DNA of 64,000 nt from Streptococcus suis (GTDB taxonomy: Bacteria; Bacillota; Bacilli; Lactobacillales; Streptococcaceae), in the NCBI GenBank assembly GCA_002831545.1, contig CP025095.1, positions 1,426,001-1,490,000 on the forward strand, given 5' to 3'. Both the position numbers and the translations under genes were made by a program. Position 1 is the stretch's first letter; every line of letters starts with the position of its first letter. Shown piece by piece: positions 3,934-64,000 of this stretch. The notes under the pieces are model-generated. The model did no database searches. It saw nothing but the letters and a program-made list of their open reading frames with translations, and was not told the DNA's origin.

Positions 3934-5004
3934 CTATTTCCGATACATCTTGAATTGGAGATAGAGGTCATTATACATTCCAAGTATCTCTGGTCCAAGA
4001 TTATCATAAACTTCCATCTTCTTCATCGTTTCTTCAGATGGATAGAAAGATTCATCGCTCTGAGTCTCCTCATCCAGCATAGCCTTGGCTGCAGGAATTG
4101 GTGTTGAATAACCAACATATTCTGCATTGCGAAGCGCATTTTCAGGACGAAGCATAAAACTCATAAAGGCGTAAGCTCCATCAATATTTTTTGCTGTTTT
4201 TGGAATGACCATGTTATCGAACCAAAGGTTAGAACCTTTTGATGGTACAACATAGCGCAGATTTTCATTTCCATCTAACATTTCACTCGCCTCACCTGAG
4301 AACGAAACAGCAATTGCTGCCGCATCTTGTATCATATAACCTTTTATCTCATCAGCAACAATTGCTTTGACATTTGGAGTTAAATTATAAAGATGTTCAG
4401 CTGCTTTTTCAATCTCTGCAGGATTTTTAGAGTTTAAGCTGTAACCCAAAGATTGCAGACCGAAGCCCATGACCTCACGAACACCGTCGATTAACATGAT
4501 ATTGTCACGGTATTCTTCTGACCACAAATCTTCCCATTCTTGAGGAGGATTGTCAACCATAGTTTCATTGTAAACAATCCCCAAGGTCCCCCAGAAATAT
4601 GGAATAGAATAGTCATTGTTCTTATCAAAACTCAAGCCCATAAATCGTGGATCGATATTTTCTATCCCTTCAATTTTTAATTTATCTAGTTTCACGAGCA
4701 TATCTTCTTCCGTCATTTTGGAAATCATATACTCAGAAGGAACAGCCAGGTCATAGGTAGTTCCACCCTGCTTGATTTTAGTGTACATGGATTCGTTAGA
4801 ATCAAAGGTCTGGTAATCCACCTGAATACCTGTTTCAGCCGTGAATTCTGCGAGTAATTCTGGGTCAATATAATCGCCCCAGTTATAGATGACAAGTTTA
4901 TCAGTTGTCCCTTGGGTTGAATCAGCTTCTAATTTTGAACTAATTCCCCATAAAACTAGGACAATAGCTATAATTCCTACAAAAAATGAATACAATCGTT
5001 TCAT
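3934..5004 (-). CDS. potD: Spermidine/putrescine ABC transporter, substrate-binding protein
   Basis: This 356-residue extracellular solute-binding protein captures polyamines for PotABC. An N-terminal hydrophobic segment (about residues 5-22) lacks a lipobox cysteine, so it is either a cleaved signal or an uncleaved anchor. The body reads as a PotD/PotF fold, with KLVIYNWGDYIDPELLAEF at the start of the mature part and LWFDNMVIPKTAKN near the ligand site. The ATG shares its A with the TAA of potC (TAATG at 5004), so the two genes are translationally coupled. It is the last gene of the murB-potABCD operon. Confidence 0.95.
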   Translation of the reverse strand: MKRLYSFFVGIIAIVLVLWGISSKLEADSTQGTTDKLVIYNWGDYIDPELLAEFTAETGIQVDYQTFDSNESMYTKIKQGGTTYDLAVPSEYMISKMTEEDMLVKLDKLKIEGIENIDPRFMGLSFDKNNDYSIPYFWGTLGIVYNETMVDNPPQEWEDLWSEEYRDNIMLIDGVREVMGFGLQSLGYSLNSKNPAEIEKAAEHLYNLTPNVKAIVADEIKGYMIQDAAAIAVSFSGEASEMLDGNENLRYVVPSKGSNLWFDNMVIPKTAKNIDGAYAFMSFMLRPENALRNAEYVGYSTPIPAAKAMLDEETQSDESFYPSEETMKKMEVYDNLGPEILGMYNDLYLQFKMYRK

Positions 5005-5774
5005 TAGTTGGCCTCCTTTTCACGTGAGATGAAATAATAACCCACTACCAATAAGATAGAGAAAAGGAAAACTAGGGTTGACAAGGCATTGATTTCTAGA
5101 GAAATCCCTTGACGAGCCCGAGAATAAATCTCTACAGATAGGTTTGAGTAACCATTTCCCGTAACAAAGAATGTCACAGCAAAGTCATCCAAGGAATAGG
5201 TAAAGGCCATGAAGTAGCCTGCAATGATGGCTGGTGTTAGGTATGGCAACATGATTTCTTTCAGCATTTGTGGCTGAGTTGCACCCAAGTCATAAGCTGC
5301 TGAAATCATATCTGCGTTCATCTCTTTCAGCCGTGGCAAAACCATCAATACTACGATTGGAATAGAAAAGGCAATATGACTGAGCAATACTGAGACAAAG
5401 CCTAGCTGGAAACCAATCATGGTAAAGAGAATTAGGAAACTTGCCCCAATCATGACGTCTGGAGCGACCATCAAGATATTATTGACAGACAAGAGTGCAT
5501 TTTGAAAACGAGGTTTTGCCTGATAGATATAGATGGCACCGAAAGTTCCGATAAGGGTCGCCATCAAAGAACTCAAGAAGGCCAACAAGAAGGTTTGAGC
5601 CAGAATCAGCATTAGTCGGCTATCGCCAAGCATAGATGAAAAATGCTCCAAGGTAAAACCTGTAAATCCATTCATATCCCCACCTTCATTAAAGGCGTAG
5701 AAAATCAGATAGAAAATCGGCAAATAAAGAAGGAGGAAGGCAACCGCTAAGTAAATGTTTGCAAATTTTTTCAT
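5004..5774 (-). CDS. potC: Spermidine/putrescine ABC transporter permease
   Basis: This 256-residue membrane permease forms the translocation pore with PotB. About six hydrophobic helices are visible. The inner-membrane EAA-type loop (AAYDLGATQPQMLKEIMLP) that contacts the ATPase is present. The start is set at ATG 5774 because a strong Shine-Dalgarno sequence (agaggaag) sits just upstream and because it makes the same TAATG overlap with the potB stop that is seen at the next junction. A longer frame from GTG at 5801 lacks this support. Confidence 0.95.
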   Translation of the reverse strand: MKKFANIYLAVAFLLLYLPIFYLIFYAFNEGGDMNGFTGFTLEHFSSMLGDSRLMLILAQTFLLAFLSSLMATLIGTFGAIYIYQAKPRFQNALLSVNNILMVAPDVMIGASFLILFTMIGFQLGFVSVLLSHIAFSIPIVVLMVLPRLKEMNADMISAAYDLGATQPQMLKEIMLPYLTPAIIAGYFMAFTYSLDDFAVTFFVTGNGYSNLSVEIYSRARQGISLEINALSTLVFLFSILLVVGYYFISREKEAN

Positions 5775-6574
5775 TATTTCTTCCTCTCTTTCGTCATCCA
5801 CATAATCAAGAGCATGGCCAAAATCAAGACCACACCAATGGTTGAGCCCATTCCCCAGTTTTGTGTTGTGAGAAAGTGTTGTTCGATAGCTGTACCAAGC
5901 GTGATCACTCGGTTACCGCCAATCAAACGGGTCAACATGAAGAGGCTCAGACTTGGAATGAAAACCGCCTGTACACCAGAACGGACACCATTCATAGAAA
6001 GAGGAAAAATAACTTTTGTGAAGGTCTGCCAAGGAGTTGCCCCCAAATCACGACTCGCATTGATTAGGTTTTTATCCAAATCATCCAAGGCGTTAAAGAT
6101 CGGCAAAATCATAAACGGAATCTCGATATAGGCTGCAACAGCAATAAAGGAGAAATCTGTAAAAAGAATTTGCTGAGCTCCTAGACCAATAAATTCTAGG
6201 AACTGGTTGATAGAGCCGTGTTGCCCAAAAATACCGATAAAGGCATAGGCTTTTAGCAAAAGATTGACCCAGGTTGGCAAGATAATAAGCATCAACCAGA
6301 GCTGTCTATGCTTGAGTTTGGTCAAGAAATAGGCTGTTGGGTAGGAAACCAAAAGCGTGACCAGAGTGATAATACCTGCGTAAAAAATGGAGTTAAAACT
6401 CATTCGCAGATAGGTCATATTGGGCGAGTTAAAATAGGTCTGATAATTGGCCAAAGTGAAATTGCCATGAATATCAAAGAAAGATTTGAAGATAATCAAG
6501 GCAACTGGAGCTAGTACAAAGAGAAAGACCCATAGGGCGTAGGGAATTGCAAAAAGCCTAGAGGTTTTCTTCAT
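5774..6574 (-). CDS. potB: Spermidine/putrescine ABC transporter permease
   Basis: This 266-residue permease partners PotC. It has six predicted helices and the EAA-type motif [19 protein letters not shown]. The start is placed at ATG 6574 (MKKTSRLF), six bases after a near-perfect gaggagg. A longer frame beginning with TTG at 6589 would bury that ribosome site. The gene overlaps the end of potA by 17 bases, which indicates coupled translation. Confidence 0.95.
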
Positions 6575-7712
6575 TGCGTTCCTCCTCAATGGCGTTAATC
6601 AAGCCATCTTCTACTTCTTCCACTTCCACATATTCTTCGATACGGGCATCGAATTCTTCCTCTGTTTCATTAAGACGCATGATATGAATATCTTCTGGCT
6701 CAAAGTCTAGACCGATGACCTCTCCCACAATAGCTTTACGAGTTGAGTGAATCATCCATTCATTGCCCAAATCATCGTAGGCAATGATTTCATAGTGAAC
6801 CCCACGGAAGAGCTGGGTATCTACTTTTACCTGCAATTTACCTTCTTCTGGAAGTGTAATCTGCAAGTCTTCTGGACGGATAACGATTTGAACGTCTTCA
6901 TTTGGACGCATACCACCATCCACAGCTTCGAAGCGTTTGCCGTTAAATTCAACTAAATAGTCTCTAATCATGCGACCAGACAGGATATTGGACTCGCCAA
7001 TAAAGGTAGCAACAAAATGGTTGATTGGCTCATCATAAATATCTACAGGCGTTCCTGACTGAACAATTTCACCTTCATTCATGACAAAAATCCAGTCACT
7101 CATGGCCAGAGCTTCTTCTTGGTCATGGGTAACGAAGACGAAGGTAATTCCTAGACGTTGTTGCAATTCACGCAGTTCGTACTGCATTTCTGTTCTTAGT
7201 TTCAAGTCCAGGGCAGAAAGTGGTTCATCTAGCAAGACGACGCGAGGCTGGTTGATAATCGCACGTGCAATAGCAACCCGCTGGCGTTGACCACCAGACA
7301 ATTTCTGAATGGAACGATTTTCATAACCAGAGAGCCGGACCATTTGTAAGGCTTCTGTCACACGGCGTTCAATTTCAGCCTTATCAACCTTTCTTAATTT
7401 AAGAGGAAAAGCCACATTTTCAAAGACAGTCATATGTGGGAAAAGGGCATAGGACTGGAAAACCGTATGGACATCCCGTTTATTAGTCGGAACATCATTA
7501 ATCCGTTGACCGTCCAGATAAATATCACCTGAACTCGCATCCAATAAACCAGCAATAATGTTCAAAATTGTTGATTTACCTGAGCCAGAAGCTCCTAATA
7601 GGGTATAAAATTTCCCTTCTTCCAATTCAAAACTAATATCCTTTAATACAGTTGTTCCACTGTCTTCAAATACTTTTGAAACGTTCTTAAATTCAATAAT
7701 TGGCTTTTTCAA
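6558..7712 (-). CDS. potA: Spermidine/putrescine ABC transporter ATPase
   Basis: This 384-residue ATPase drives polyamine import. It shows Walker A (GASGSGKST), the signature [14 protein letters not shown], Walker B ([12 protein letters not shown]), a switch His (FVTHDQEEA) and a C-terminal TOBE-like regulatory domain (about residues 270-350). It appears to start with TTG at 7712, with aagga about 11 bases upstream. A nearer ATG at 7719 is out of frame and stops after eight codons. It lies 38 bp after murB, in the conserved streptococcal murB-potABCD arrangement. Confidence 0.94.
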
Positions 7713-7750
7713 TTCTCATAAATTCCTTCTTTTAAAACAGAGCCAGATGG

Positions 7751-8659
7751 CTAGAGTTTATCAGCAAGTTCACCGATAATACGAACCTCTCTCTCCAGTG
7801 TAATTCCTGAAGATTTTTCAACAACATCAATCACATGTGCAATCAGATTTTCATAATCCTTTGCTGTACCATTGTCGACATTGACCATAAAACCTGCGTG
7901 TTTTTCAGATACTTCAACACCACCAATTCGATAACCTTTTAACCCCGCATCCATAATCAACTGACCTGCAAAGTGACCAAGTGGACGTTTGAAGACTGAA
8001 CCACAAGATGGATATTCCAAAGGTTGCTTGAGCTCGCGTAAATGTGTCAAACGAGCCATTTCTTGTTGAATAACCGTATGATTTCCTGGCTTGAGGGCAA
8101 ATTTTGCAGACAAAACAATCGCACCGTTTTCCTGCAAAATAGAAGAACGGTAGCCAAATCGCAACTCACGATTGTCCAACGTTTCGACATAACCTGCTGG
8201 AGTCAAAATCTGCGCTGAAACTAGAATGTGTGCCACTTCACCTCCGTAAGCACCTGCATTCATATAGACAGCACCACCAATGCTTCCCGGAATACCACAA
8301 GCAAATTCAAATCCTGATAAAGAATGAAAAAGTGCGACTTTTGTCGTTTCAATCAGATTGGCACCTGCTTCCGCTTCAATGGTGTATCCTGATACAGTAA
8401 CGGAGTTAAGTTTATCCATACGGATAACAAAACCACGAATACCGCCATCTCGGACAATGATATTACTTGAATTTCCTAATACTTGCCATGGAATACCTTC
8501 GCGTTTAGCAAATTCTACTATACGAACAATCTCGTAACGATTCCGCGGAAAAGCTAGATAATCAACAGCTCCTCCTACTTTTGTATAGGTATATTCTTTT
8601 AAAGGCTCATCGAATCGGATATCGATGCCTTCTAATTCAAGCCTAATTTTATCTTTCAT
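7751..8659 (-). CDS. murB: UDP-N-acetylenolpyruvoylglucosamine reductase
   Basis: This 302-residue cytoplasmic flavoenzyme makes UDP-N-acetylmuramate, the second committed step of peptidoglycan synthesis. The FAD-binding region is recognisable ([35 protein letters not shown]), as is the substrate and catalytic region ([11 protein letters not shown], with the Ser proton donor). Length is normal. The ATG at 8659 follows gagaagg. It is the promoter-proximal gene of the operon with potABCD. Confidence 0.96.
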
Positions 8660-48145: not shown

Positions 48146-51100
48146 CTATATTTTGACTTCAACCACTTCTATTCTCTCCCCACCAAGCAAAATCAAATGG
48201 CAGTCTACACGATCTATCTTGTAGGCTTTTTTCAATGCCTCGGCATAGAGTTGCATTTGAGCTTGGTAACGTTGACTGAGTTGGATTGGTTGGTCATATT
48301 TGTCTGTCTTGTAATCAAAGAGGACAATATGATCATCATACAGTAGGTAGCCATCGATAATTCCACGCAGGACAAAGTTTTCCTGAGATACAGGATCTGT
48401 CTGCAAACTTGCAAATGGAGCTTCTCGGTGGAGTTTGTCCGTATTGGCTAGAATTTCTCTTCCTAAGTCTGTATCAAAGAAATCCAAAATCATCTGAACA
48501 TTGATTTTATCTTTAATCGCTTGCTCAGCATGAACAGCTTCTAGAGCTGCTCTTACCGTATCTTCTGTCACCAACCAAGACAGATCCAAGCGTTGCATGA
48601 GTTCATGGACTGCTGATCCGACTTGGGCTCCAGTGATTTTTGGTTTCTTGGAGAAATCTGGCAAGTTGAAGGTCCGTTTTGGCTGGTATTTTTCCATAAC
48701 TTCCATGCCTTCTTGTTCCAAAATAGGCTCATAGAGTTTCTTGATTTGACTTGGAGTCCGTAAACTTGGCAATTCAATGGCAGCCTTATAGCGTTCGTTC
48801 AACTCTTGAACAGAAGACAGCTGGTCCAAGGCCTGGGCGATGTCTTCTGATTGACGAATATCTTTAAGGCTGGTATCTTCTAGCTTACTCTTCAATTTCA
48901 GTTTACCGATCTTCTCCTCTGTCAAATCCTCGTCCGTTACAAAGACTTTCTTGAAGCGCAAGTCTTCTCCTGAAAAAGCCTCATCAATGGCTAGAATCCA
49001 GTCTTGGAAGGTTGCCATGCTTTCACGAGTTGATAGGGCAAGTACGCCATCTTCCTTTTTGCCATCGTATTTTTCAGCTAACTTGTCAGCATTGCCCTTT
49101 CCAACCAGATACAGCTTCTTCTCGGCACGCGTTAGTGCAACGTAAAGCAACCGCATTTGTTCTGAGAGATTAGCAATTTTTAGCTCTTGGAGATTATTTT
49201 GATAGGGAAGGGTGTTCATTAAGACTCGCACCTGAGGCAATGGGCTATTTACCTTATCTTTCATATCCGCTAAATATTGGATACCTAGACCATTTTTCCG
49301 GCTGATAATGACTGACCAGTAATGGTCTTCCAAGTTGAATCGCTTATCGATGTTCATGAGGAAGACATATTTGAACTCCAAACCTTTTGACTTATGGATG
49401 GTCATAAGCTGTACAGCATTTTGCGGTAGAAACTCTTGTACATCTGCCAAGTCCTTGTCATTTGCTAAGGCACGGTCAATCATGGCGATGAAACGAGACA
49501 AGCCCTTGTAGCCTGTTTTTTCGAACTGGTTGGCACGCAGACCTAGTGCATATAGATTGGCCTGACGCTTGCTACCATTTGGAAGAGCACCAACATAGTC
49601 ATAGTAGAATTTTTCATTGAAAATCTTCCAAATCAAGTCATAAATAGAATGCAGTTTGGCAAAAGCACGCCAGTTTTCTAAGATAGACAAGAAATCCTTG
49701 ATTTTCTTCTTCAACTCTCCTGACATAAGTTCAGGATGTTGCCCATTTGTTTGATGGGCTATTTCCATTTTCTGGTACAAGAAACCGGTCCCAGCCTGCA
49801 AGGAAATCCGTGTCAGCTCATCCTCATCGAATCGGAACATAGGCGATTTAAGCAGGGCAACCAAGGCATAGTCATTGAGTGGATTATTGATAACCCGCAA
49901 GGTATCCAGCATGATCATGACTTCTAAAGATTGCAAATAGGAGGCTGCTCCACCATCTGCCACAATTGGAATCCCGTGTTTTTCAAAAATGGACATAATG
50001 AGGTCATTGTGCGTCCGTTTTTGCACCAAGAGAGTGATATCCTTGAAGTCTGCTCCTTCTTCATTGTGAAGACGAATAATCTCTTTTGCAACGACCTCAA
50101 TTTCACCAGCAGTCAGAGGTGTTTCCTCCTCAGCATCCATTGAAGAATGTGCGCTCTCCTGCTGGTCGTAAATGAAGTATTCCATCTCATGCTTGGGCTG
50201 GGCAATTTTTTGACCAGGACTACCAGCCACTAGACTGTGGGTGTCGTCATACTTGATTTCCCCTACTTGACGGTCCATCAGACGCGTGAAAATAGCATTT
50301 GTTGCCTCCAAGACCTCAATCTGACTACGGAAGTTTTCCTTGAGTAATATCAATTTCCCAGCCTGAGGATTTTCCTGATACAATTCAAATTTCTCTTGGA
50401 AAATCATCGGATCCGCCTGACGGAATCGATAGATGGACTGCTTAATATCGCCCACCATAAAGCGGTTGTGACCGTTAGACAGCAGGTCCAACATTCGCTC
50501 TTGGCTATGGTTGTTATCCTGGTACTCGTCCACCATGACTTCGTGGTATTTTTCTTGGAAAAACTGGCGGATGTCTGCATTTTCTTCTAAAATACGAATA
50601 GCGAAATGCCCAATATCACCAAACTCAAAAGCTGCTTCCTTGATTTTGACATCCAGATAAGCCTGCGAAAAATCCAAGACAAAGTCACGTAATAATACGA
50701 GCAGTGGCAAAGCTTGAATCTGATAGTCTTTCAGCAGGGTTAATTCATAGACTTCCTGACCCAAATCTCGTAGTCCAGAGATAATCTGGCTCTTGCCAGC
50801 ATTGTATTCTTCTTTAAAGGCTATCAAATGCTCATCTTTTGGTCGATTGGCATTGGTCAGGCCTTTGCCTCTGGACTGGTCATTGATGAGAAGGACTCTT
50901 TCAACCCGCTCCATCAACTGCTTGGAATCCAGATGGTCTATACCAGTTAACAATTCGATTACATCTTCAACGCTTGAAAAATACTTAGCAGAACCAAAGT
51001 CATTTCTGCCCCATTCCACATGGTAGCGGAAGAAATCTGCAGCTTGATAGAGCTTGTCTAACACTTTTTCCTTAAAGCCTTGCTCTAGCATCTGCTCTAT

Positions 51101-51796
51101 ACGCTCTTGACTGTACAAATCAGCTTGAACAGCTTGCTCTTTCAGCCATTTAGTTGGACTGCTTGTCGATTGGCTAAAATCATGTACCTGATAAATAACC
51201 TGACGGAAACCACTGTTATCCTTGCGGTTGCCCGAAAAATTGCCAACCAGTTTGCGGAATGCACCATTTTCATCCTGTTCAAGATAATCTGCAAAGAGCT
51301 GGTCAAAAACCTCTTTTTTCAGACTCGCTTTTTCTGTCTCATCCTGTAAAATCCGAAACTGCGGAGAAATACCAAGGCTATAACCATAGGTTGTCACCAA
51401 TTTCTGCGTAAAGGAGTCCATGGTACCAATATCCGCCTTGGTCAAATCCGCCAACTGGGCAGACAAATGCTGTCGCAATTCCATATCGGTCGTCTCCGAA
51501 ATGGTTTCATTGAGATTTTTCTCGATCCGCTCCTTCAACTCACCAGCCGCTTTGACTGTAAAGGTCGAGATAAAGAGCTGGTCAATCCCGACACCACGCT
51601 TCAACTTATCCAAAATCCGTTGAACCATAACGAAGGTCTTGCCTGACCCAGCCGATGCAGAGACCAGAACATTCTGACCATGCGTGTAGATGGCTTCAAT
51701 CTGCTCAGGTGTGCGTTTTTGTTGCTTATCAGAATTGGCTTCCGCCAGCTGCACAGCCTTGATTTCTTCCGAGTTTAAAAATTCTTCAAAAGCCAT
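48146..51796 (-). CDS. rexA: ATP-dependent exonuclease/helicase subunit A
   Basis: This 1216-residue AddA-type protein works with RexB to process double-strand ends. It has a UvrD-like helicase (Walker [33 protein letters not shown]) and a C-terminal RecB-type nuclease ([23 protein letters not shown]). The ATG at 51796 overlaps the rexB stop (TAATG); a longer frame to 51829 is inside rexB. The TAG stop and two bases of the last codon fall in sequence shared by both IS copies, so the IS has redefined the C-terminus. Confidence 0.95.
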
Positions 51797-54700
51797 TAGT
51801 CCTGACCTCCTTTCATTCGTTCCATCCAATCTTGACGCTTGGCCTCTTTGACCAACCGCCGTGCCATACCCATATGTCGATCCGCCTCAAAACCAGTGAT
51901 TGCCTTCAGCTGCTCACCTGCCACCGAACGCCCATCTTTTGTATAAGGGTTAATAGCAAAGCGACCATCCAGGATGTCCTTGGCAGCTTGTTTGTAGAGT
52001 TCTTGGTTGTGGTTCAATAACACCGCAAACTCATCTTCCGTATAGAGTTGGTTACGAGTCTGATAAAAATGATTGAGCCCCAGACTTTCCTCCTTCAAGA
52101 AAAGCCCCTTGTAAGCCAAGCTAGTATTGGCAGCTCCTTCTAGCTGTTCTAAATTCTTCGTGTCTTTTAATTTGATAATCGGATCCTGCAAATGCAAATA
52201 CATAGCTCCAAAAACAGGTTTATCCTTGGTTTCATCCAGCTCTTGTAAGGCTGCCAAGTAGGTTACCAACTGAGGTTTAAGACCATTGTAAAAATCCCCA
52301 ACTGAAAAAGATTGGTCACTGGACTTGTAATCCACAACACCGACAGCCTGATTGATTTGTAAGGTATCCAAGCGGTCAATGGTACCATTTACATGCACAC
52401 TCTTACCATTTTGAAGGTCAAAAACCAGCGCCTTATCCTGACGGAAACTCTTTTCCTGACCATCAATTTCCACCAAATCATTATCCCGCAAAATGGTTGC
52501 ACTGGAGCGAGCAATCTTATCCAGCACCTCCTCCGTATAACGAGCATCCGCATCCTGGTTATAAAACATAGCAAATTCTGCCTCGTCACGTGTACGCAGG
52601 ATGGCCTTGTCCACTTTTTGATCAAAATCTAGCTCAGATTGGTCCATGACCACTCGTTCAAAAATCCGATGCAAGAACAAACCATGCTGAAAGGCAGTCG
52701 GATGGATGGATTCCTGTTCCCGCAAGCGAAGAACATTACGGACAAAGTAAAGATATTGGTTGTTGTAAAAATTGGTTAAGCTGGATGCTGAAAGATTGAG
52801 CGGCTTATCCTCTGGATATAAAGCAGCCAATGTATCAGCTGAAAGCTGTTTAGAAGTAATTTCGCCAGTAATGGTCGGAATTTCAATGCCTTGCGACTCC
52901 AATTTCTTCTTCAAATGGCGAACCAAGACTGTCCAGAAGGCCCTCTGCCCTTCCCATTCTTCATGATCAAGAGAGGGTCTTTCCGACTCAATCAAACGGG
53001 ATAAGAGACTCTTGTAGTGACCGATGTCTTGCGGACTAAGTGTTTTCATCCTTCCACGTTCTTCGGATTTCAGCCCCATTTTTTGGAGAATCTTAATGTA
53101 GGGTGACAGACTATCTTCACCTTCGTTATAAATCTGAGGAGTTGAAATGACTAACTGTTCCGTCGCAACATTCAGCAGAGACATCATGGCTGCATGGTTC
53201 TTCTTGATATTCTCTCGGCTGACCAAATCGAAACGTGAAGAACTGGCTGAAACAAGATTGACTTTTTCCATCTCTTCTTCTGTCAATAGACTGGTATTCT
53301 TAGCAACTTTTGGAAAATTAGACTGGCCCATCCCGATAGCATAAACATACTTTGCAGTGTGTGGCTCAATCAAATCATAGGATTTGACATTGACCACATC
53401 AACCGTTGCAGGAACGGTACGATAGTGGCTGGCCTGCATTCCAGCCTGTAAAATAGCCAGAAAATCATCCATTTTCAATTTTTCTTTTCCGAAAACCTGA
53501 TGAAAATTCTCAAGAATATAGGTAAAACTTTTCCAGACCTGCTCTTCTTTTTCTTGCTCTATTTCGCTCAAATTTCGAGACATTTTTTCCATATTTTTAG
53601 GAAGCTCAATCGCCTCCAAAAATGCCATAAATTTCTCAAGCAAGGCAGCTCCAGATTGTGGTCCAGCCTTAAACAGCTGGTTCAAAGGTTCCATAATCTT
53701 AGCACGTAGGGGTTCCAAGACATTCAAATCATAAACAAGCCTTTTCTCCTTAATGACTTCAGCGTCATAGTCTGCTCTGCTATTGGCCACAAACGCCCTC
53801 GAAAAAGCAGCCTGGCCTTTCATATCCGCAAAGAGGATGTAAGACTCAAATAGGTCCAGCTCCTTTTGGGAAATGCTGGCGTACAAACCAGATTTGAGGA
53901 GATTGAGCAGGTCTTCCGAACGGAAACGATAGCGACGCAAGCGCTCCAAGGACTCCACAAAATGGACCAGAGGATGATGACTCATCTCCTCTGCCTTGCC
54001 GAAATAGTAAGGAATGTCATACTTGTCAAAAATCTTGCCAATCTGCAACTTGTAGCTATCCACATCACCCAAGAGCAACAAAATGTCTTTATAGCGTACC
54101 CCTTGGTGTATGTGTTGGCGAATTGCAGTCGCAACCTGCTCCACCTCTTCTTTTTGGTTAACGACCTCCCATAGCTGGATTTTTTCTTGGTCTGCTGGAG
54201 TCAACTCAAGTAAGGTTCCGCTATAATCATAAATCGACTCCATATTCTTTGAAAATTTTCCAATACTATCCAAGACTGGCTCTTGACCAATATATGAAAT
54301 CTTTGTCTGGAATTGGGCTGATAACTGGCGCAAAAAGTCAACATTAGCTTGATAAACATTTCCTTCAATATAGGTCGCTTGCACAGCTTTCTTGCTGGCA
54401 TATACACCAATCAGGATTTCCGACACCCGTTCATTTAAAGCACTTACTAAAGCTTCTTCTTCTGCCGAAAAACGAGAAAATCCGTCTACCACCAGCACAA
54501 TGTTCTTCAACTGCTCATCCAACTGACCAGTTTCTACCAGGCCAGTCAGCTGTGCTAACTTAGACTGATGCTCAAAGCCTTCTTTGGACAAAATGTCTGT
54601 TACAGCCAGAAAAATCTTTACCAAGTCTGCCTGCTTATCTGGTGAGTCCATGGCTTCCAAGTCCAAAATAGACATATTTGCCCGTTGCAATTCTTTGTAT

Positions 54701-55062
54701 AAAGCAACCAGCTGATTAATGAAACCAAAATCTGTCTGCAAACGACCATAGACTTTCAAGTCGCCATCTTCAAATTGCGATAGAACACGAAAGAAAATCA
54801 TTGCCAGACCAACATCATCCAGCGGTTGACTTGCTTCTTTCCTATCAATCATCAAATAGCGGGCCAATTGCCCAAAACGGGTCACGATAATATCAAAAGT
54901 TGCCTGTTCAGGTAGGTATTCCAAAACCTTGCGTTCCATCTCAAAGGATAGAGAGTTTGGAGCAATATAAAAAACTCGCTTACCTTCCTTAGCAAATTCT
55001 GCTGCGGTATCCGTTAAATACTGCGTCAGAGGATTGCGAATATCTGTATAGACTAATTTCAT
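51796..55062 (-). CDS. rexB: ATP-dependent exonuclease subunit B
   Basis: This 1088-residue AddB-type protein has an N-terminal inactive helicase-like domain ([18 protein letters not shown]) and a C-terminal nuclease domain ([21 protein letters not shown]). Streptococcal RexB lacks the iron-sulfur cysteines of Bacillus AddB, and no Cys cluster is seen here. It is the first gene of rexBA. An extended -10 (TTTGATATACT, hexamer at 55100-55105) lies about 40 bases upstream. Confidence 0.95.
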
Positions 55063-55189: not shown

Positions 55190-58100
55190 TTAGTCTTCGT
55201 TGCGACGACGTTTGCCTGCAAGAGCGATTGCGGCAACCAGCATCGCTGCACCAAGGACGCCAGCTGAAGATGAAGCTTCGCCAGTATTTGGCAATTGAGC
55301 CGCACCAGCTTTAGCAGTTGTTGGAGCTACAGGAGCCTGTGGTTTTGGTGCAACAGGGTTGCTTGCCTTACGGTAAACATGATATGTATTACCATCACCA
55401 TCAGTATATGTCTTACCTGTAAACTCGTATCCTGGGATTGACTTGTTCGGTGTTGTACCTTCCTCTTGCGGTGCAATTGGGTTACCGTCTTCGTCAACGT
55501 GGTTTGTTACAACCTTAGTTACCTTACGGTAGATATGTGTTGTGTTACCGTCTGGATCTGTTACAGTCTTACCTGTGAACTCGTATCCTGGGATTGACTT
55601 GTTCGGTGTTGTACCCTCTTCTTGCGGTGCAATTGGGTTACCGTCTTCGTCAACGTGGTTTGTTACAACTTTAGTTACCTTACGGTAGATGTGTGTTGTG
55701 TTACCGTCTGGATCTGTTACAGTCTTACCTGTGAACTCGTATCCTGGGATTGACTTGTTAGGTGTTGTACCCTCTTCTTGCGGTGCAATTGGGTTACCGT
55801 CTTCGTCAACGTGGTTTGTTACAACCTTCTTAGCAGGTGTTTCTACTTTACGGTAAACGTATGTTACTTCAGTAGTCTTACCACCTACAACAGTACCAGT
55901 TTCTGAACCTTCCACACGAACAAGCTCATAAGTTGTACCATCTTCTGTAGTGATAGTGTTTGGCTTGTTATCAGTTGTGTCATAAGACTTACCTGCTGGA
56001 GCGTCTGTTTCGTCGTTAACAGGTGTCTTAAGCACATTGCCATTTTCATCCACATAGTTCACCACAACGTTACCATTTTGAACGTAAGGGACTGGTGTGT
56101 CAACGCCAGAATCATCTGGTGTTGGTGGTACATAACCCTTACCTGGATCTGTTGGATCAACTGGTTTCAATGGTTCGTTGGTCTTAGGATCTACTGGTGT
56201 GTAGCCTGGAACGTTTGGAATCACTGTATCTGGAGTTGGTGTTACTGGTACATCTGGGTTGTTTGGATCAAACGGATATGGAACTTTTGGTTCTTCTCCT
56301 GCTGGTACACCTGGAATTTGTGGGATCCAGTTAGCGACTTTCTTATACACATAAGTGATCTCAATTGTCTTACCGCCTTCAACTGTACCTGTTTCAGAAC
56401 CAATTGTCTTAGACGGAATCAAGACATAACGTGAACCATCTTCTGTAACAATCTCAACTGGCTTGTTGTCAGTTGTGTCATAAGACTTACCTGCTGGAGC
56501 GTCTGTTTCGTCGTTAACAGGTGTCTTAAGCACATTGCCATTTTCATCCACGTAGTTCACCACAACGTTACCATTTTGAACGTAAGGGATTGGTGTGTCA
56601 ACGCCAGTTTCGTCTGGTGTTGGTGGCACATAACCCTTGCTTGGATCTGTTGGATCAACTGGTTTCAGTGGCTCGTTTGTCTTAGGATCTACTGGTGTGT
56701 AGCCTGGAACATGTGGAATGGATGGAACTTCACCATTTGTACCTGGTGTTGTTGGATCAATTGGCTTATCTGGGTTAGTTGGGTCGAATGGATATGGAAC
56801 TTTTGGTTCTTCTCCTGCTGGTACACCTGGAATTTGTGGGATCCAGTTAGCGACTTTCTTATACACATAAGTGATCTCAATTGTCTTACCACCTTCAACT
56901 GTACCGTTTTCTGAACCAACTGTCTTAGACGGAATCAAGACATAACGTGAACCATCTTCTGTAACAATCTCAACTGGCTTGTTATCAGTTGTGTCATAAG
57001 ACTTACCTGCTGGAGCGTCTGTTTCGTCGTTAACAGGTGTCTTAATTACTGTACCATCTTCGGTCACGTAGTTCACCACAACGTTACCATTTTGAACGTA
57101 AGGGATTGGTGTGTCAACGCCAGAATCATCTGGTGTTGGTGGTACATAACCCTTACCTGGATCTGTTGGATCAACTGGTTTCAATGGTTCGTTGGTCTTA
57201 GGATCTACTGGTGTGTAGCCTGGAACGTTTGGAATGGATGGAACTTCACCATCTGGGTAAGGTGTTGTTGGATCAATTGGCTTATCTGGGGTAGTTGGAT
57301 CGAATGGATATGGAACTTTTGGTTCTTCTCCTGCTGGTACACCTGGAATTTGTGGGATCCAGTTAGCGACTTTCTTATACACATAAGTGATCTCAATTGT
57401 CTTACCACCTTCAACTGTACCGTTTTCTGTACCAATTGTCTTAGACGGAATCAAGACATAACGTGAACCATCTTCTGTAACAATCTCTGTTGGTTTGTTA
57501 TCTGTTGTGTCATAAGACGTACCTGCTGGAGCGTCTGTTTCGTCGTTAACAGGTGTCTTAAGCACATTGCCATTTTCATCCACGTAGTTCACCACAACGT
57601 TACCATTTTGAACGTAAGGGACTGGTGTGTCAACGCCAGAATCATCTGGTGTTGGTGGTACATAACCCTTACCTGGATCTGTTGGATCAACTGGTTTCAA
57701 TGGTTCGTTGGTCTTAGGATCTACTGGTGTGAAGCCTGGAACATGTGGAATTGATGGAACTTCACCATTTGTACCTGGTGTTGTTGGATCAATTGGCTTA
57801 TCTGGGTTAGTTGGGTCGAATGGATATGGAACTTTTGGTTCTTGTCCTTCAGGAACACCTGGAATTTGTGGAACCCAGTTCGCAACTTTTTTATACACAT
57901 AAGTGATTTCTGTTGTCTTACCACCTTCAACTGTACCGTTTTCTGTACCAATTGTCTTAGACGGAATCAAGACATAACGTGAACCATCTTCTGTAACAAT
58001 CTCAACTGGTTTGTTATCTGTTGTGTCATAAGACTTACCTGCTGGAGCATCTGTTTCGTCTTTAACAGGTGCCTTAATTACTGTACCATCTTCGGTCACG

Positions 58101-61100
58101 TAGTTCACCACAACGTTACCATTTTGAACGTAAGGGATTGGTGTATCAACACCAGTTTCGTCTGGTGTTGGTGGCACATAACCCTTGCTTGGATCTGTTG
58201 AATCAACTGGTTTCAGTGGCTCGTTTGTCTTAGGATCTACTGGTGTGTAGCCTGGAACATGTGGAATGGATGGAACTTCACCATCTGGGTAAGGTGTTGT
58301 TGGATCAATTGGCTTATCTGGGTTAGTTGGATCGAATGGATATGGAACTTTTGGTTCTTGTCCTTCTGGAACACCTGGAATTTGTGGAACCCAGTTCGCA
58401 ACTTTCTTATACACATAAGTGATTTCTGTTGTCTTACCACCTTCAACTGTACCATTTTCTGTACCAATTGTCTTAGACGGAATCAAGACATAACGTGAAC
58501 CATCTTCTGTAACGATTTCTGTTGGCTTGTTATCAGTTGTGTCGTATGGACTATCTGGTTTTGCGTTTGTTTCGTCATTAACAGGTGTCTTGATGACTGT
58601 ACCATCTTCTGTAATGTAGTTAACAACAACGTTACCAGCTTTTTCATACACATAAGTAACTTCTGTTGTACCTTCTACAACCTTACCTGTTTCGTTTGAG
58701 CCAGCCTGAACTTCTTTGTAGTAGTATACATCGCCAGTTGCATCTTCAACGATTTTCTCTGGTTTGTTGTCAGTTGTGTCGTAAGCTGTACCTGTTGAAG
58801 TTGTCTTCGTATCCACTACTTGAGGAGCAATTACTTTACCATCAGTATTTACGTAGTTAACAACAACATCACCCTTCACTTCTTCGTACACATAAGTTAC
58901 TTCCGTTACGCCTGGAACAACGTCACCTGTTTCAGAACCTTGAGTCATTTTAGGAACCAACTTGAATGTGCGACCATCTTTAGTTGTGATTGTTGCTGGT
59001 TTCACATCTGTTGTATCGTACTCTGTACCTGTTGAAGCTTCTGGTGTATCTACTACTTGTGCTTGTAATTCTTCACCTGTTGTTGAGATGTAATTTACAA
59101 CAACTGAACCTTTCACTTCTTTGTAGACATATGTAACTTCTTTAGTTACACCAGCTTCTACAGTACCAGTTTCATCACCAACTGTAGATGCTGGAACCAA
59201 CTCATAAGTTTTACCGTCATCAGTAGTGATGGTTGTTGGGCGTAGGTCACTTGTATCGTAAGTCGAACCTGGTTTACCGTTCACAGTATCATCAACCGTA
59301 CTTGCTGTTACTGTACCGGCATTGGTTACACCTGAAATTGGAGTGCCGTCTGTCGCAATGTAATGAACAATAACGTCACCAGCTTGTTCATAGACATACT
59401 GTACAGTGGTAGTCGTTGTTGCGACTTTACCAGTTGTTGGTGCAGAGCTGTCTTTGACTTCTTTGTAGTAGTAGACTTTACCATCTTCAGTGACGATAGT
59501 CTCTGGACGGTGATCTTCGTCTGTGTTGTAGTCTGTTCCGACAGACTTGCCAGCTTCGTCTACGACTGTTTTGGCAATTTGGTTACCCTCTGTATCGTAG
59601 TACTCAACTACAACGTCACCTTTCACTTCTTGGTAAACGTAAGTGATTTCTTTCGTTGTACCAGCTTCAACTGTACCAGTCGTAGCATCGATACCTGTTG
59701 CTTTACCGTTACCAACTGCTGTCAAGTTGTTGTCACCTGAAACTGTACCTACATTGTAAGTATTTGCCGGAGCAAGGCGGTAAAGTTTGCCATCTACTGA
59801 GATGCTAGCCAGTTTGTTATCAAGAACAGTGTCATAGCCAGAACCTGGTTTACCATCTGTCACGTCTGCAACTGGATCTTTAAGAACATTACCTTCTGTA
59901 TCGACATAGTTAACATTAACGCTACCAGCTTTTTGGTAGATGTATGTAACTTCAGTTGTACCTTCTACAACCTTACCTGTTTCAGGAGCCGAGCCTGCTT
60001 TGACTTCATCTTTTGGCAAGATGTAGTAAACATCGCCAGTTTCGTCATTAACGATTTTTTCTGGTTTGTTATCTTTAGTATCGTAGTATGTACCTGTGTC
60101 AGTGATAACTTGGTCTGTTACATCGTCTGCAATTGTGTTACCTTCAGTATCAACATAATGAACGATAACATCACCTTGAAGTAACTCATAGACATAAGTT
60201 ACGGTTGTAGTGCCTTCGACAACTTTACCCGTTTCGTTTGCTGGGATAGCTGCTGGAACGAGTTTGTAAATCTTACCATCTGTTGTGGTGATTGTGTTTG
60301 GACGGAGGTTTTGGGTATTGTAGTCGGTACCTGTTGATGTCTCTGGTGTGTGCTCTACGCTGCTTTCTGTAACGTTTCCTGCGTCTGTTGTACCAGCGAT
60401 TGGGTTACCTTCGGTATCAACGTAATTCACCACAACGTTACCTTTGACTTCTTTGTAGACGTAAGTAACTTCCTTAGTCTTACCTGCTTCAACGGTACCT
60501 GTTTCCTCACCTTTAGTTGATGCTTCGACTAGCGCATAGGTCTTACCATCTGCTGTGGTGATGGTTTTTGGCTTGAGGTCTTTGGTGTCATAAGTCTCAC
60601 CTGGTTTACCGTTTGTCGTATCATTTACAGTAGCTGCTGTAGTGGCACCTGTATCAGTGGTTCCTGAAAGTTCTGTGCCGTCTTCAGTAACGTAGTGAAC
60701 GATAACGTTACCTGCTTGTTGGTAAACGTAGGTGATTTCTTTGGTCACGTTGCTTTCGATGTCGCCTGAGACAGCATCGATACCTGTTGCAGTGTTGTTA
60801 CCGATAGCTGTCAAGTTACCGTCATCACCGACTGTACCAACATCATAAGTCCCCTTAGGAACGAGGTAGTACACCTCACCAGTAGCGGTTTCAATCTTAT
60901 CACGTTTTTGGTCAGTTGTGCTGTAGGTATCTCCTGGCTTACCGTTTTCAACATCGATGACTTTGCTACTGATGGCATTACCTTTAGTATCTACATAGTT
61001 AACGTTTACGTTACCAGCTTTTTCATAGACATAGGTCAACTCTTTAAGGGTATCTTGTTCGATGGTACCTGTGACCTCATCGATCTTCACGATCGCACGT

Positions 61101-63745
61101 TTTTCACTATCAGTGTTTGCTGATGGTGGGACCAGGTTGCTGGTTGTAAGGTCGATCTCTTTGTAGTAGTAAACCTCACCCTTATAGGTAATCTTTTCTG
61201 GTTTGATCTCTGTCGTATCTAGGTTATAGTCTGTCCCTGTATCGGCATGGTTAGTCACAAGGTTTTCATCCTTGATCTCGTTACCATCCTCATCAACGTA
61301 GAATACCTTAACCCCACCTTTTTCAGCGTAGTAGTAAACTTGGTCGTTTCGGTTAACTAGGTTAGAGTTGGGAAGTGAGATCCTAGCCCCTGAGAAGTTG
61401 ATCGGTTGTCCATCTGCATCGTTGATGTTGTTGCCATCACTATCAGCCAACATGTAACTTGTTTCTGAATTTGGATCAAGGCTGGCTTTTGGCTCACCAC
61501 TAAACGGTCCTAAAGTATAACCAATGGTATCCGTTATCTCAACAACTTGTTTTCCTTCAGAGTTACGGACCCGTCTTTGGAACTTGTATTTGGTTGATGT
61601 GTAGCTATAGCCTGCTTCACCTGTAATGGCGTGGTTTTCAGTGTTTAAACCGCCTGGTTCAATCGGTTTCGTAACGAAGGTAATCAAGAAATCATCGTTA
61701 ACGGTGTTGAGTTGAGCCATTGTCGACTTACGTAAAACGCTGAGCGCTGCTTCTTTTTCATCATCTGTAGTCGACTTATCATCGTTAATCGCTTTTTCCT
61801 GCTCTGCAAAGGCATCGATGATATCAATACGTTCTGACAAACGTAGGATGGTAGCAGCATTTTCTACAAACTCTGCTCGTGTCATCGCCTTATACTTTTC
61901 ATAGTTAGCTAGGAAGTCTGGGTGGTCAGGGTTAATCGCATAAGTTATGAGACGAGATGTCCCGTCTGTTTTTGTGGTGATGATCCCTTTTTGTGCCTTA
62001 GTGCTAGGGTTATAACGTATCTCTGCACCACCGATAACATAGGAACTCGCCAAGGTCCCTGAGACAATCGTTGGTTTTTCTATCAACTCATAGTCAGCAA
62101 AGACCGCTTCACCAGATGTGGTAAAGTTATCACCTGCAAGGTCAGAGGTCTGGACATAGCGAGCCAGTTCTTCTTCAACACGAATCGCTGTCCCTGCTAC
62201 CTTATACAGCGTGTTTTGGCGTGGGGCAAAGGTTGGTGCGGGTCCTGTGAATGTGGTATACTCCCCTCTATCTGATCCCATGGCGTTAAAGACGATTGAC
62301 ATATCCCCGCCATCACCAACACCAGCAGCTACATTTAGCGAGCGTGTGATTGCCGTTTCACCTGTCTTATGGTTTTTCATTTCAAGCTCGGTGACAAGCA
62401 TGGTGAATTTGAATTTTCCTGTAGATTTTGGATCTATATAGGTAGCGTTTAGAATAGCATCAAATTCTTGACCAACACCATTTGTCGTTAGCACCTTGCT
62501 GTCGATAATCTGGTTGGTTGTTTTATCGATCAGGTAAGCGTAGGTATCTGTACCGTCTGATGAGTTACGGTTAACAGAAAAAGCGATATAGTAGTTTAGT
62601 CCTGTGCGTCGATTGAAAGAACCAGCATTGTAATCATTAGCAGGTTGCGTAGCATCCATCGAGTTAGACAGTTCCAAAATCAAAAAGGTCATACGACCTG
62701 TTGTCGGATCTCCGATATAGCCATCTGGGAAGATCTGTGGTGCTGGTGTCAGACGAGCGGCTTCTGCGGCTTCTTCTTTGTTTAGAACAGTTGCATACTC
62801 TGACCAGTAACCTTGGATACCGTTACCGTTATCCATGTTTGTGATAGTTGGTGTATCAGGGAGTGTCGCGCTTCTATCAGAGCGTGAGCTTAGGGTTCCT
62901 AGCGCTGCGCTGAAGTCTTGCGCCGTCTTATCTGTCACTGCTTTTTGCTCAGCGATAGCGTTTAGCGCAGCCAGGTCAGCTTCTGCTGTTGTGTCGATGC
63001 TAACTGTTGCTGTTGGCGCTACGGTATCTGTGTTAGTCGTAGCTGTGCTTTGGCTAGGCTCTTGTGTCGCTGTAGCCGTTTGCGCTGGTGTTGTGCGCGT
63101 TGACGCAGCTGTTTGGGCTTTGCTAGCTTCTGGTGTTGTCGGTGCAGAAGTGAGCGATTCTGTTGTTGTCGTTGTTGTGCTAGCTTCTGTTGATTTAGCA
63201 GTTGCTGTTTCTGTTGAAGCTGTTGTAGTAGTTTCAGAAGTTGCCGCTTTTTCTTCAGCTTTCTTCACAACTTTAACAGTAACAATATTTACACCGTTTT
63301 CGGTCACTTCCTGAGAAACTGTAGCTGACTGACCTGATGCTAATTCATATCCTTCTGGTACTACTGCTGTGACAGATACCGTTGCTTTTGCAATTGTTTC
63401 TGTGGTAGTAACTGAAACTGTTTCTACTGAAGCGTTCACAAGTGTACCATCTTCAGTAGCGTACTTAACAATATAACCGATTTCAACTGTACGTTCAGAA
63501 CTTGATGAAGTCGCTGTTTCTGTTGAAGTTTCTGATGTCGTTGATTCTGTAGCACTTGTGGATGAAGCTACGGACGTAGACTCTGGAGTTGTAACTGTCT
63601 CTGCAGCTTGAACAACCTGTGTCCCAGTACCAAGTGCAATCGACATCCCAAGTAAGACACTAGCAGCACCAAAGTGGTATTTACGAATTGAGAAGTGCTG
63701 TTTCAATCCGTACCAGTCAAAAGATTTTCTTCTAGAATGATGCAT
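55190..63745 (-). CDS. Giant YSIRK-MucBP-LPXTG surface protein
   Basis: This 2851-residue protein is predicted to be wall-anchored. In order: YSIRK-type signal (FSIRKYHFGAASVLLG, 18-33, cleavage near 48); a Ser/Thr/Ala-rich stalk to about 280; a unique region (about 290-880) that may bind a ligand; about 16 MucBP-like repeats; five long repeats pairing a MucBP unit with a Pro-rich linker; three 52-residue repeats; then LPNTG (2818-2822), a hydrophobic helix and KRRRNED. MucBP domains suggest mucin or host-glycan binding. aggagg precedes the ATG. Confidence 0.93.
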   Translation of the reverse strand: MHHSRRKSFDWYGLKQHFSIRKYHFGAASVLLGMSIALGTGTQVVQAAETVTTPESTSVASSTSATESTTSETSTETATSSSSERTVEIGYIVKYATEDGTLVNASVETVSVTTTETIAKATVSVTAVVPEGYELASGQSATVSQEVTENGVNIVTVKVVKKAEEKAATSETTTTASTETATAKSTEASTTTTTTESLTSAPTTPEASKAQTAASTRTTPAQTATATQEPSQSTATTNTDTVAPTATVSIDTTAEADLAALNAIAEQKAVTDKTAQDFSAALGTLSSRSDRSATLPDTPTITNMDNGNGIQGYWSEYATVLNKEEAAEAARLTPAPQIFPDGYIGDPTTGRMTFLILELSNSMDATQPANDYNAGSFNRRTGLNYYIAFSVNRNSSDGTDTYAYLIDKTTNQIIDSKVLTTNGVGQEFDAILNATYIDPKSTGKFKFTMLVTELEMKNHKTGETAITRSLNVAAGVGDGGDMSIVFNAMGSDRGEYTTFTGPAPTFAPRQNTLYKVAGTAIRVEEELARYVQTSDLAGDNFTTSGEAVFADYELIEKPTIVSGTLASSYVIGGAEIRYNPSTKAQKGIITTKTDGTSRLITYAINPDHPDFLANYEKYKAMTRAEFVENAATILRLSERIDIIDAFAEQEKAINDDKSTTDDEKEAALSVLRKSTMAQLNTVNDDFLITFVTKPIEPGGLNTENHAITGEAGYSYTSTKYKFQRRVRNSEGKQVVEITDTIGYTLGPFSGEPKASLDPNSETSYMLADSDGNNINDADGQPINFSGARISLPNSNLVNRNDQVYYYAEKGGVKVFYVDEDGNEIKDENLVTNHADTGTDYNLDTTEIKPEKITYKGEVYYYKEIDLTTSNLVPPSANTDSEKRAIVKIDEVTGTIEQDTLKELTYVYEKAGNVNVNYVDTKGNAISSKVIDVENGKPGDTYSTTDQKRDKIETATGEVYYLVPKGTYDVGTVGDDGNLTAIGNNTATGIDAVSGDIESNVTKEITYVYQQAGNVIVHYVTEDGTELSGTTDTGATTAATVNDTTNGKPGETYDTKDLKPKTITTADGKTYALVEASTKGEETGTVEAGKTKEVTYVYKEVKGNVVVNYVDTEGNPIAGTTDAGNVTESSVEHTPETSTGTDYNTQNLRPNTITTTDGKIYKLVPAAIPANETGKVVEGTTTVTYVYELLQGDVIVHYVDTEGNTIADDVTDQVITDTGTYYDTKDNKPEKIVNDETGDVYYILPKDEVKAGSAPETGKVVEGTTEVTYIYQKAGSVNVNYVDTEGNVLKDPVADVTDGKPGSGYDTVLDNKLASISVDGKLYRLAPANTYNVGTVSGDNNLTAVGNGKATGIDATTGTVEAGTTKEITYVYQEVKGDVVVEYYDTEGNQIAKTVVDEAGKSVGTDYNTDEDHRPETIVTEDGKVYYYKEVKDSSAPTTGKVATTTTTVQYVYEQAGDVIVHYIATDGTPISGVTNAGTVTASTVDDTVNGKPGSTYDTSDLRPTTITTDDGKTYELVPASTVGDETGTVEAGVTKEVTYVYKEVKGSVVVNYISTTGEELQAQVVDTPEASTGTEYDTTDVKPATITTKDGRTFKLVPKMTQGSETGDVVPGVTEVTYVYEEVKGDVVVNYVNTDGKVIAPQVVDTKTTSTGTAYDTTDNKPEKIVEDATGDVYYYKEVQAGSNETGKVVEGTTEVTYVYEKAGNVVVNYITEDGTVIKTPVNDETNAKPDSPYDTTDNKPTEIVTEDGSRYVLIPSKTIGTENGTVEGGKTTEITYVYKKVANWVPQIPGVPEGQEPKVPYPFDPTNPDKPIDPTTPYPDGEVPSIPHVPGYTPVDPKTNEPLKPVDSTDPSKGYVPPTPDETGVDTPIPYVQNGNVVVNYVTEDGTVIKAPVKDETDAPAGKSYDTTDNKPVEIVTEDGSRYVLIPSKTIGTENGTVEGGKTTEITYVYKKVANWVPQIPGVPEGQEPKVPYPFDPTNPDKPIDPTTPGTNGEVPSIPHVPGFTPVDPKTNEPLKPVDPTDPGKGYVPPTPDDSGVDTPVPYVQNGNVVVNYVDENGNVLKTPVNDETDAPAGTSYDTTDNKPTEIVTEDGSRYVLIPSKTIGTENGTVEGGKTIEITYVYKKVANWIPQIPGVPAGEEPKVPYPFDPTTPDKPIDPTTPYPDGEVPSIPNVPGYTPVDPKTNEPLKPVDPTDPGKGYVPPTPDDSGVDTPIPYVQNGNVVVNYVTEDGTVIKTPVNDETDAPAGKSYDTTDNKPVEIVTEDGSRYVLIPSKTVGSENGTVEGGKTIEITYVYKKVANWIPQIPGVPAGEEPKVPYPFDPTNPDKPIDPTTPGTNGEVPSIPHVPGYTPVDPKTNEPLKPVDPTDPSKGYVPPTPDETGVDTPIPYVQNGNVVVNYVDENGNVLKTPVNDETDAPAGKSYDTTDNKPVEIVTEDGSRYVLIPSKTIGSETGTVEGGKTIEITYVYKKVANWIPQIPGVPAGEEPKVPYPFDPNNPDVPVTPTPDTVIPNVPGYTPVDPKTNEPLKPVDPTDPGKGYVPPTPDDSGVDTPVPYVQNGNVVVNYVDENGNVLKTPVNDETDAPAGKSYDTTDNKPNTITTEDGTTYELVRVEGSETGTVVGGKTTEVTYVYRKVETPAKKVVTNHVDEDGNPIAPQEEGTTPNKSIPGYEFTGKTVTDPDGNTTHIYRKVTKVVTNHVDEDGNPIAPQEEGTTPNKSIPGYEFTGKTVTDPDGNTTHIYRKVTKVVTNHVDEDGNPIAPQEEGTTPNKSIPGYEFTGKTYTDGDGNTYHVYRKASNPVAPKPQAPVAPTTAKAGAAQLPNTGEASSSAGVLGAAMLVAAIALAGKRRRNED
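55470..55830 (-). repeat. Three C-terminal 52-residue repeats
   Basis: Three near-identical units (VVTNHVDEDGNPIAPQEEG onward) about 156 bp apart, just before the wall-anchor region. Confidence 0.85.
56072..58640 (-). repeat. Five long tandem repeats within the surface protein gene
   Basis: The same marker sequence recurs at 56072, 56570, 57086, 57602 and 58118: three periods of 516 bp (172 residues) and one of 498 bp. Each unit is a MucBP domain followed by NW(I/V)PQIPGVP and a Pro-rich linker. High identity allows copy-number change by recombination. Confidence 0.9.
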
Positions 63746-63859
63746 TATTATCCTCCTGTATTCTATGCATAGCTAAAAATAAGATAGGTAACTAAAAATG
63801 CTTTCAGATTACATCTCCCTCATTTTACTATTAGCTAACCATTTTTAGCTTCTATAAGC

Positions 63860-63891
63860 ATTATACCCTACCCCCCCCCCCAGATTTTCAA
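63860..63891 (-). promoter_or_regulatory. Promoter of the surface protein with an 11-G run in the spacer
   Basis: The minus strand reads TTGAAA (63886-63891), a 20-base spacer made of atct, eleven G (63871-63881) and taggg, then TATAAT (63860-63865). The best spacing of 17 would need eight G. Slippage in the G-run should switch expression. The leader to the ATG is about 108 bases. Confidence 0.75.
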
Positions 63892-63924
63892 GTAAAATCT
63901 TCCATTTTCCGCAACATACGCGAA

Positions 63925-63955
63925 AAGACGCATGTAACTTTTTTCTAGTTGCATG
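63925..63955. other. Inverted repeat upstream of the surface protein promoter
   Basis: gcatgtaact/agttgcatgc, a 10-bp stem with one wobble and a T-rich loop, lies between the promoter and the IS end. It is a candidate regulator site or part of the IS target. Confidence 0.4.
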
Positions 63956-63965
63956 CCCATTCTGA

Positions 63966-64000
63966 TATTGTGGATTGGTTACCTACAGGTCAATGGTCCT
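63966..64000 (-). mobile_element. Left end of a third, divergent IS110-family copy (cut by the window)
   Basis: tattgtggattggttacctac and the following bases match the left end of copies A and B except for one missing C and a change near the edge (ggtcct for ggttctg). It is in the same orientation. Only 35 bases are visible. Confidence 0.75.

Follow-up and report, generated by a model that had tools for sequence, protein, structure and literature searches.

A poly-G promoter upstream of a giant surface protein gene

This analysis concerns a promoter near the end of a 64,000-nucleotide stretch of Streptococcus suis DNA (the window), taken from a single-contig genome of 2.72 Mb (G000), in which a homopolymeric G tract lies within the spacer ahead of an open reading frame (ORF) for a very large surface protein (Table 1). 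A sequence-only reading had described eleven consecutive G residues between a TTGAAA -35 box and a TATAAT -10 box with a 20-base spacer, upstream of a 2851-residue MucBP wall protein, and had proposed that the tract is a phase switch. Both direct reading and a script reproduced this layout, which on the minus strand runs TTGAAA-ATCT-G11-TAGGG-TATAAT with a spacer of exactly 20 bases. The protein was also correctly described; profile searches identified a YSIRK signal, ten stretches of MucBP, three of SSSPR-51 and an LPXTG anchor, and no solved relative of residues 250-800 was found at an E value of 0.01. The start codon lies 114 nucleotides from the end of the -10 box and 126 nucleotides from the tract.

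Table 1. Features of the target promoter and gene in the window, and the other promoters of G000 that match the strict poly-G pattern (positions prefixed G000 refer to the genome, those prefixed L014 to that locus, and all others to the window).
Feature	Position	Strand	Basis or remark
-35 box TTGAAA	63886..63891	-	sequence; matching promoter in G006 has the same box
20-base spacer ATCT-G11-TAGGG	63866..63885	-	sequence
G11 tract within promoter spacer, proposed slippage site	63871..63881	-	sequence; orthologous tracts 12 (G014), 11 (G016)
-10 box TATAAT, without TG extension	63860..63865	-	sequence
Ribosome-binding site AGGAGG	63752..63757	-	sequence
ORF of 2851-residue wall-anchored surface protein	55190..63745	-	ORF translation, profiles
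G15 strict promoter before SpaA-type protein (L010)	G000:C1:1577363-1577393		
G9 strict promoter before YSIRK/aRib protein (L012)	G000:C1:945000-945028		G14 in G014, identical flanks
G8 promoter with 15-base spacer before galE (L014)	L014:4629-4655; G000:C1:1049628 on		genes at 4689-8001

The target promoter in other genomes

Among 284 genomes of the genus, the full target promoter was present in three (G000, G014 and G016), with flanks kept at 98-100% and with spacers containing ATCT and G11 (20 bases), ATC and G12 (20 bases), and ATC and G11 (19 bases), respectively. Run length across isolates, a check that the sequence-only reading had proposed, is therefore not constant in the three complete tracts that can be counted. 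The contigs of two more S. suis assemblies end within the tract, that of YS56 at 8 G and that of strain 10581 at 9 G. In strain 10581, approximately 180 bp of the upstream sequence of G000 is absent, including a remnant of an IS110-family element, but the core is retained as far as the tract. Named genomes contained four relatives, all from S. suis.

A false or miscounted poly-G tract, arising from sequencing or assembly, is hardly credible as an explanation. Two of the five assemblies with this locus break within the tract, homopolymer lengths are error-prone, and one genome with 18 long G runs (G002) looks artefactual, but three independent genomes carry the tract with matched flanks, and an artefact would have no preference for promoter spacers. 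Exact tract counts may be off by one. It is also very unlikely that another promoter drives the gene and that the tract is a mutational relic devoid of effect, as might be supposed from a spacer of 20 bases, which is poor by Escherichia coli rules. A scan of positions 63600-64000 revealed no sigma-70 promoter with 16-18 spacing, as expected if the target spacer is 20, and hence no other promoter-like site of that kind. Furthermore, conservation of the flanks in three genomes, retention of the core in strain 10581 despite the absence of sequence upstream, and the genus-wide bias in tract position described below all speak against a relic.

Two promoters lack a long tract. In G006, a promoter preceding an ORF that we take to be rpsB-like from its N-terminus (L026:1569-1597) matches the upstream region and -35 box of the target (GATTTTACTTGAAAAT) and has a 17-base spacer without a G tract; because the -35 box is kept where the tract is missing, this match supports the -35 assignment at the target. 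In S. suis DE406T, a distantly related gene is preceded by a promoter (L082:176-204) that combines TTGAAA, just five G residues in a 17-base spacer, TGC and TATACT, and is perhaps a locked form.

Recurrence of the layout across Streptococcus

The G11 run by itself is just mildly unusual, as the window contains no other match to G8 (four overlapping matches, all within this run) and as many were obtained in 2 of 100 shuffles. What raises it above chance is its position. When the 284 genomes were searched with a strict pattern, TTGA-N2..14-G8-N0..14-TATAAT, 55 matches were found in 37 genomes, while the reversed pattern gave none. Placing G8 behind the -10 box rather than within the spacer also gave no match in the 284 genomes, and replacing G8 by C8 gave four, all from one family and with 31-33 bases between the boxes, which is off-spacing. 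This recurrence, together with the three controls, ruled out an isolated coincidence.

Tract lengths in the 55 strict promoters range from 8 to 18 G. Spacers of 15, 16, 17, 18, 19, 20, 21, 22 and 27 bases occur in 4, 4, 10, 11, 10, 10, 2, 3 and 1 of them, respectively; thus, 54 of the 55 fall within 15-22 bases, where 37% would be expected if placement within the pattern were random. The -35 box is TTGACA in 27 of the 55. When the order was sampled evenly, a search with the TTGACA form matched 11 of 71 genomes of the same genus versus 1 of 324 others (genome totals counted from the result rows). The sole match outside the genus, in G382 (L111), is a TTGACA-G10-TATAAT arrangement preceding a secreted-looking ORF.

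Runs of at least 10 G number 228 across the genus (a hand sum of table columns), in 92 of the 284 genomes, and 33 of them fit the strict pattern. Among 40 other G runs, hand-picked from the matches listed after setting aside strict matches and G002 and therefore not a random sample, 16 resembled promoters, with less strict boxes, on the G strand versus one on the C strand. Several remaining runs of at least 10 G lie in open frames of at least 700 bases (L124, L135, L136, L145, L154, L156, L160 and L162), and G runs of this kind, within long open frames, might be candidates for translational switches.

Genes preceded by poly-G promoters

Surface, secreted or capsule genes lie downstream of 47 of the 55 strict promoters, as assigned by motif, Pfam, family likeness or eye, with Pfam run on 30 of the 55 downstream proteins plus galE and most proteins cut at 420 residues. 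YSIRK signals were found in 21 (20 by motif, L071 by Pfam), an LPXTG ending in six further proteins, KxYKxGKxW signals in three (L049 by likeness to L085), and pilin, SpaA or Big_8 domains in six (L052 weakly; L092 as family partner of L010). Four genes are of capsule type (CpsB, two LytR-CpsA-Psr and galE), one was classed through its family partner (L083, partner of L050), and six products look secreted by eye (L062, L074, L063, L056, L061 and L073).

G000 contains ten distinct runs of at least 8 G, four of which lie between TTGA and TATAAT; these four precede genes for the MucBP protein, a YSIRK/aRib protein, a SpaA-type protein and galE. The galE gene is followed by Wzz-type and ATPase genes in a capsule-like operon, and the same promoter layout precedes CpsB and LytR-CpsA-Psr genes in other streptococci (L084, L089 and L070). 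Because galE, CpsB and LytR-CpsA-Psr genes share this layout, capsule may also be phase-variable through poly-G promoters. Elsewhere in G000, a G9 run (L011:4973-4981; G000:C1:190972-190980) lies 82 bp upstream of a surface ORF that looks YSIRK-like by eye, and no clean -35 box accompanies it.

Constrained spacing and a proposed phase switch

The relationship between tract and spacer was assessed with one member per family, which reduced the 55 promoters to 42 families. The variance of total spacing was 5.44, versus 8.88 when G lengths were shuffled against the non-G part of the spacer (p = 0.005), and p was 0.0003 when a 27-base outlier was omitted. This lower variance indicates that total spacing is constrained, with the tract and the remaining spacer compensating for each other, while the tract itself varies. 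Near-identical promoters (at least 80% identity over the downstream 100 bp) form 25 pairs, not independent where they belong to one family, and their tracts are unequal in 18. Two pairs have identical flanks (100 bp downstream and 40 bp upstream) and different tracts, one with G9 in G000 and G14 in G014 (spacers of 17 and 22 bases) and the other with G10 and G8.

These pairs bear on the idea that a tract of constant length acts through the structure of DNA or RNA polymerase, as a G-rich helix, a sensor of supercoiling or the site of a poly-G-bound protein, with changes of length being incidental. The strict matches carry G rather than C on the coding strand, an asymmetry for which pure spacing has no need, but promoters with identical flanks differ in length by up to five bases, and this explanation is considered unlikely.

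The target tract is instead probably a contingency locus at which phase variation of transcription would occur through promoter spacing, as judged from sequence comparisons. Replication slippage would add or remove G residues within the core sigma-A promoter and alter the distance between the -35 and -10 boxes, which is 20 in G000, and hence the strength of transcription, with a strong state expected at a spacing of about 17-19 and a weak state at 20 or more. The phase switch proposed by the sequence-only reading thus gains support from the boxes, the tract, the length differences, the constrained spacing and the bias toward surface genes, while slippage within a clone and spacing-dependent transcription at the target are steps that we infer. 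In E. coli, promoters work best with a spacer of 17 and are penalised roughly quadratically for departures from it (PMC8791639), so a weak promoter is expected from the 20-base allele and a stronger one from a shorter tract; the G000 allele would then represent a weak or OFF state. The suggestion that a three-base slip would give an ideal spacer of 17 is arithmetically sound, as G8 yields 17, but single-base slips, to 19 and 18, would be the likelier steps.

Poly-G spacers do not centre on 17. Their median is 18 in the 55 promoters and 18.5 in the 42 families, versus 16-17 in ordinary G000 promoters, and a spacing of 16-17 was found in 24 of 34 ordinary G000 TTGACA/TATAAT pairs with spacing of 14-22 (from a list, typed by hand, of 44 of the 45 pairs, the poly-G one being dropped) versus 14 of the 55 poly-G promoters (Fisher p = 5e-5). 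The response may therefore be a graded one with a shifted optimum. That the tract works as a rheostat and not as an on/off switch is a serious possibility, although the less probable one: each G gained or lost would change expression by degrees, the poly-G helix would displace the optimal spacing from 17 to roughly 18-19, and alleles of 19-20 would be moderately active. Intermediate states of Neisseria fetA, reported in one study (PMC13293289), fit such a rheostat, as does the longer median spacer, but a longer mean spacer could also arise simply because OFF states are mixed in or because the search demanded at least G8.

Several observations weigh against a phase switch at the target and in the genus. 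Complete target tracts number just three, none with an ideal spacing of 16-18, and what distinguishes G000 from G014 is a T/G substitution at the edge of the tract, which leaves spacer length equal. Tracts were equal in 7 of the 25 near-identical pairs, a TGn extended -10 box in 10 of the 55 promoters should soften dependence on spacing, eight of the 55 genes downstream (L097, L068, L100, L064, L069, L087, L077 and L075) show no clear sign of being surface genes, and 247 of the 284 genomes have no strict match.

Taken across the genus, the data make it likely that Streptococcus has an unrecognised phasome in which poly-G core-promoter spacers independently control YSIRK and serine-rich-repeat-type adhesins, pili, PgrA-like proteins and capsule operons, with the poly-G helix possibly shifting the spacing optimum above 17. 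If this is true, the four strict loci of G000 would let one genome combine different adhesin and capsule states without a recombinase or dedicated regulator. A shared promoter design would help to explain variable surface expression of adhesin, pilus and capsule, would caution against using a single isolate to assess such proteins as vaccine antigens, and would allow the state of surface genes to be predicted by counting G residues. It would also provide, within one genus, a natural spacing series of 15-22 bp in which the response of sigma-A promoters to spacer length could be studied.

Surroundings of the target promoter

Upstream of the promoter, at 63915-63939, lies an element that resembles TTACATGCATTTTCTTCATGCG, includes an inverted AAATGCATGTAA half and recurs before several unrelated G000 promoters (L107-L110); a similar element precedes the presumed rpsB-like gene of G006 (L026). 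With up to three mismatches, TTACATGCATTTTCTTCATGCG has four copies in G000, two of them ahead of genes that have a G8 or G9 run and the others before a short ORF and a gene that we take to be pheS-like. The target promoter holds just a more diverged copy. Because half of the G000 copies precede these other genes, the element is not specific to poly-G promoters and was rejected as their partner. Positions 63955-64000, and sequence beyond the window, belong to a 107-bp remnant, about 89% identical, of the end of an IS110-family element that has intact copies elsewhere in the genome; a 37-bp repeat near the window end is part of this match and was rejected as a separate feature. Downstream of the adhesin gene, two ORFs (48146-55062) match AddB-type and UvrD/AddA-type nuclease-helicase profiles.

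Comparison with known slippage systems

Searches of the open-access literature brought up, among their best-ranked matches, no description of poly-G promoter-spacer switching in Streptococcus, which is no proof of novelty. To our knowledge, streptococcal slippage switching is known just from scattered loci of other designs.

The following streptococcal systems differ from the target in the place and nature of the repeat. In the Spy1336/R28-Spy1337 intergenic region of Streptococcus pyogenes, the length of a poly-T tract is linked to transcript levels of a gene for an LPXTG protein (PMC7098570); this too is an intergenic homopolymer, but it is a T tract in a divergent intergenic region, with ATTTTT-repeat spacing noted in a figure legend, rather than poly-G between -35 and -10 boxes. 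The pil1 and pil3 loci of Streptococcus gallolyticus also show slippage-driven phase variation of a surface structure, through GCAGA pentanucleotide repeats in a transcribed leader ORF that act on a terminator (PMC3894217). Leader attenuation of this type was rejected for the target, where the tract lies upstream of the -10 box and a scan of 63600-64000 found no terminator-like site. Slippage likewise drives phase variation at the poly-C tract of S. pyogenes mga (PMC10330708) and the GAGCA repeats of S. suis modS (PMC6265453), which lie within coding frames and not promoters; a coding-frame switch of this sort was rejected because the target tract is 126 nucleotides upstream of the start codon.

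The closest parallels are found in Neisseria meningitidis, in line with the sequence-only reading, which had named opc as sharing the design; layout and proposed action at the target match those of porA, opc and fetA. In these systems, porA is described in terms of variation in -10/-35 spacing (van der Ende 1995), opc is low with 11 C and high with 12 C (PMC3447861), and fetA has a polyC tract in its core promoter (PMC13293289). At the target, too, a homopolymer lies between recognisable boxes in the core promoter of a gene whose product is a surface protein by profile, with predicted exposure, and tract length differs between near-identical promoters (18 of 25 pairs; 11, 12 and 11 at the target). 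The Neisseria genes are unrelated and belong to another phylum, and their relation of tract length to expression has been measured, whereas the target is known from its sequence. In comparison with porA, opc and fetA, the streptococcal design is a single one shared by many genes for adhesins, pili and capsule within one genus.
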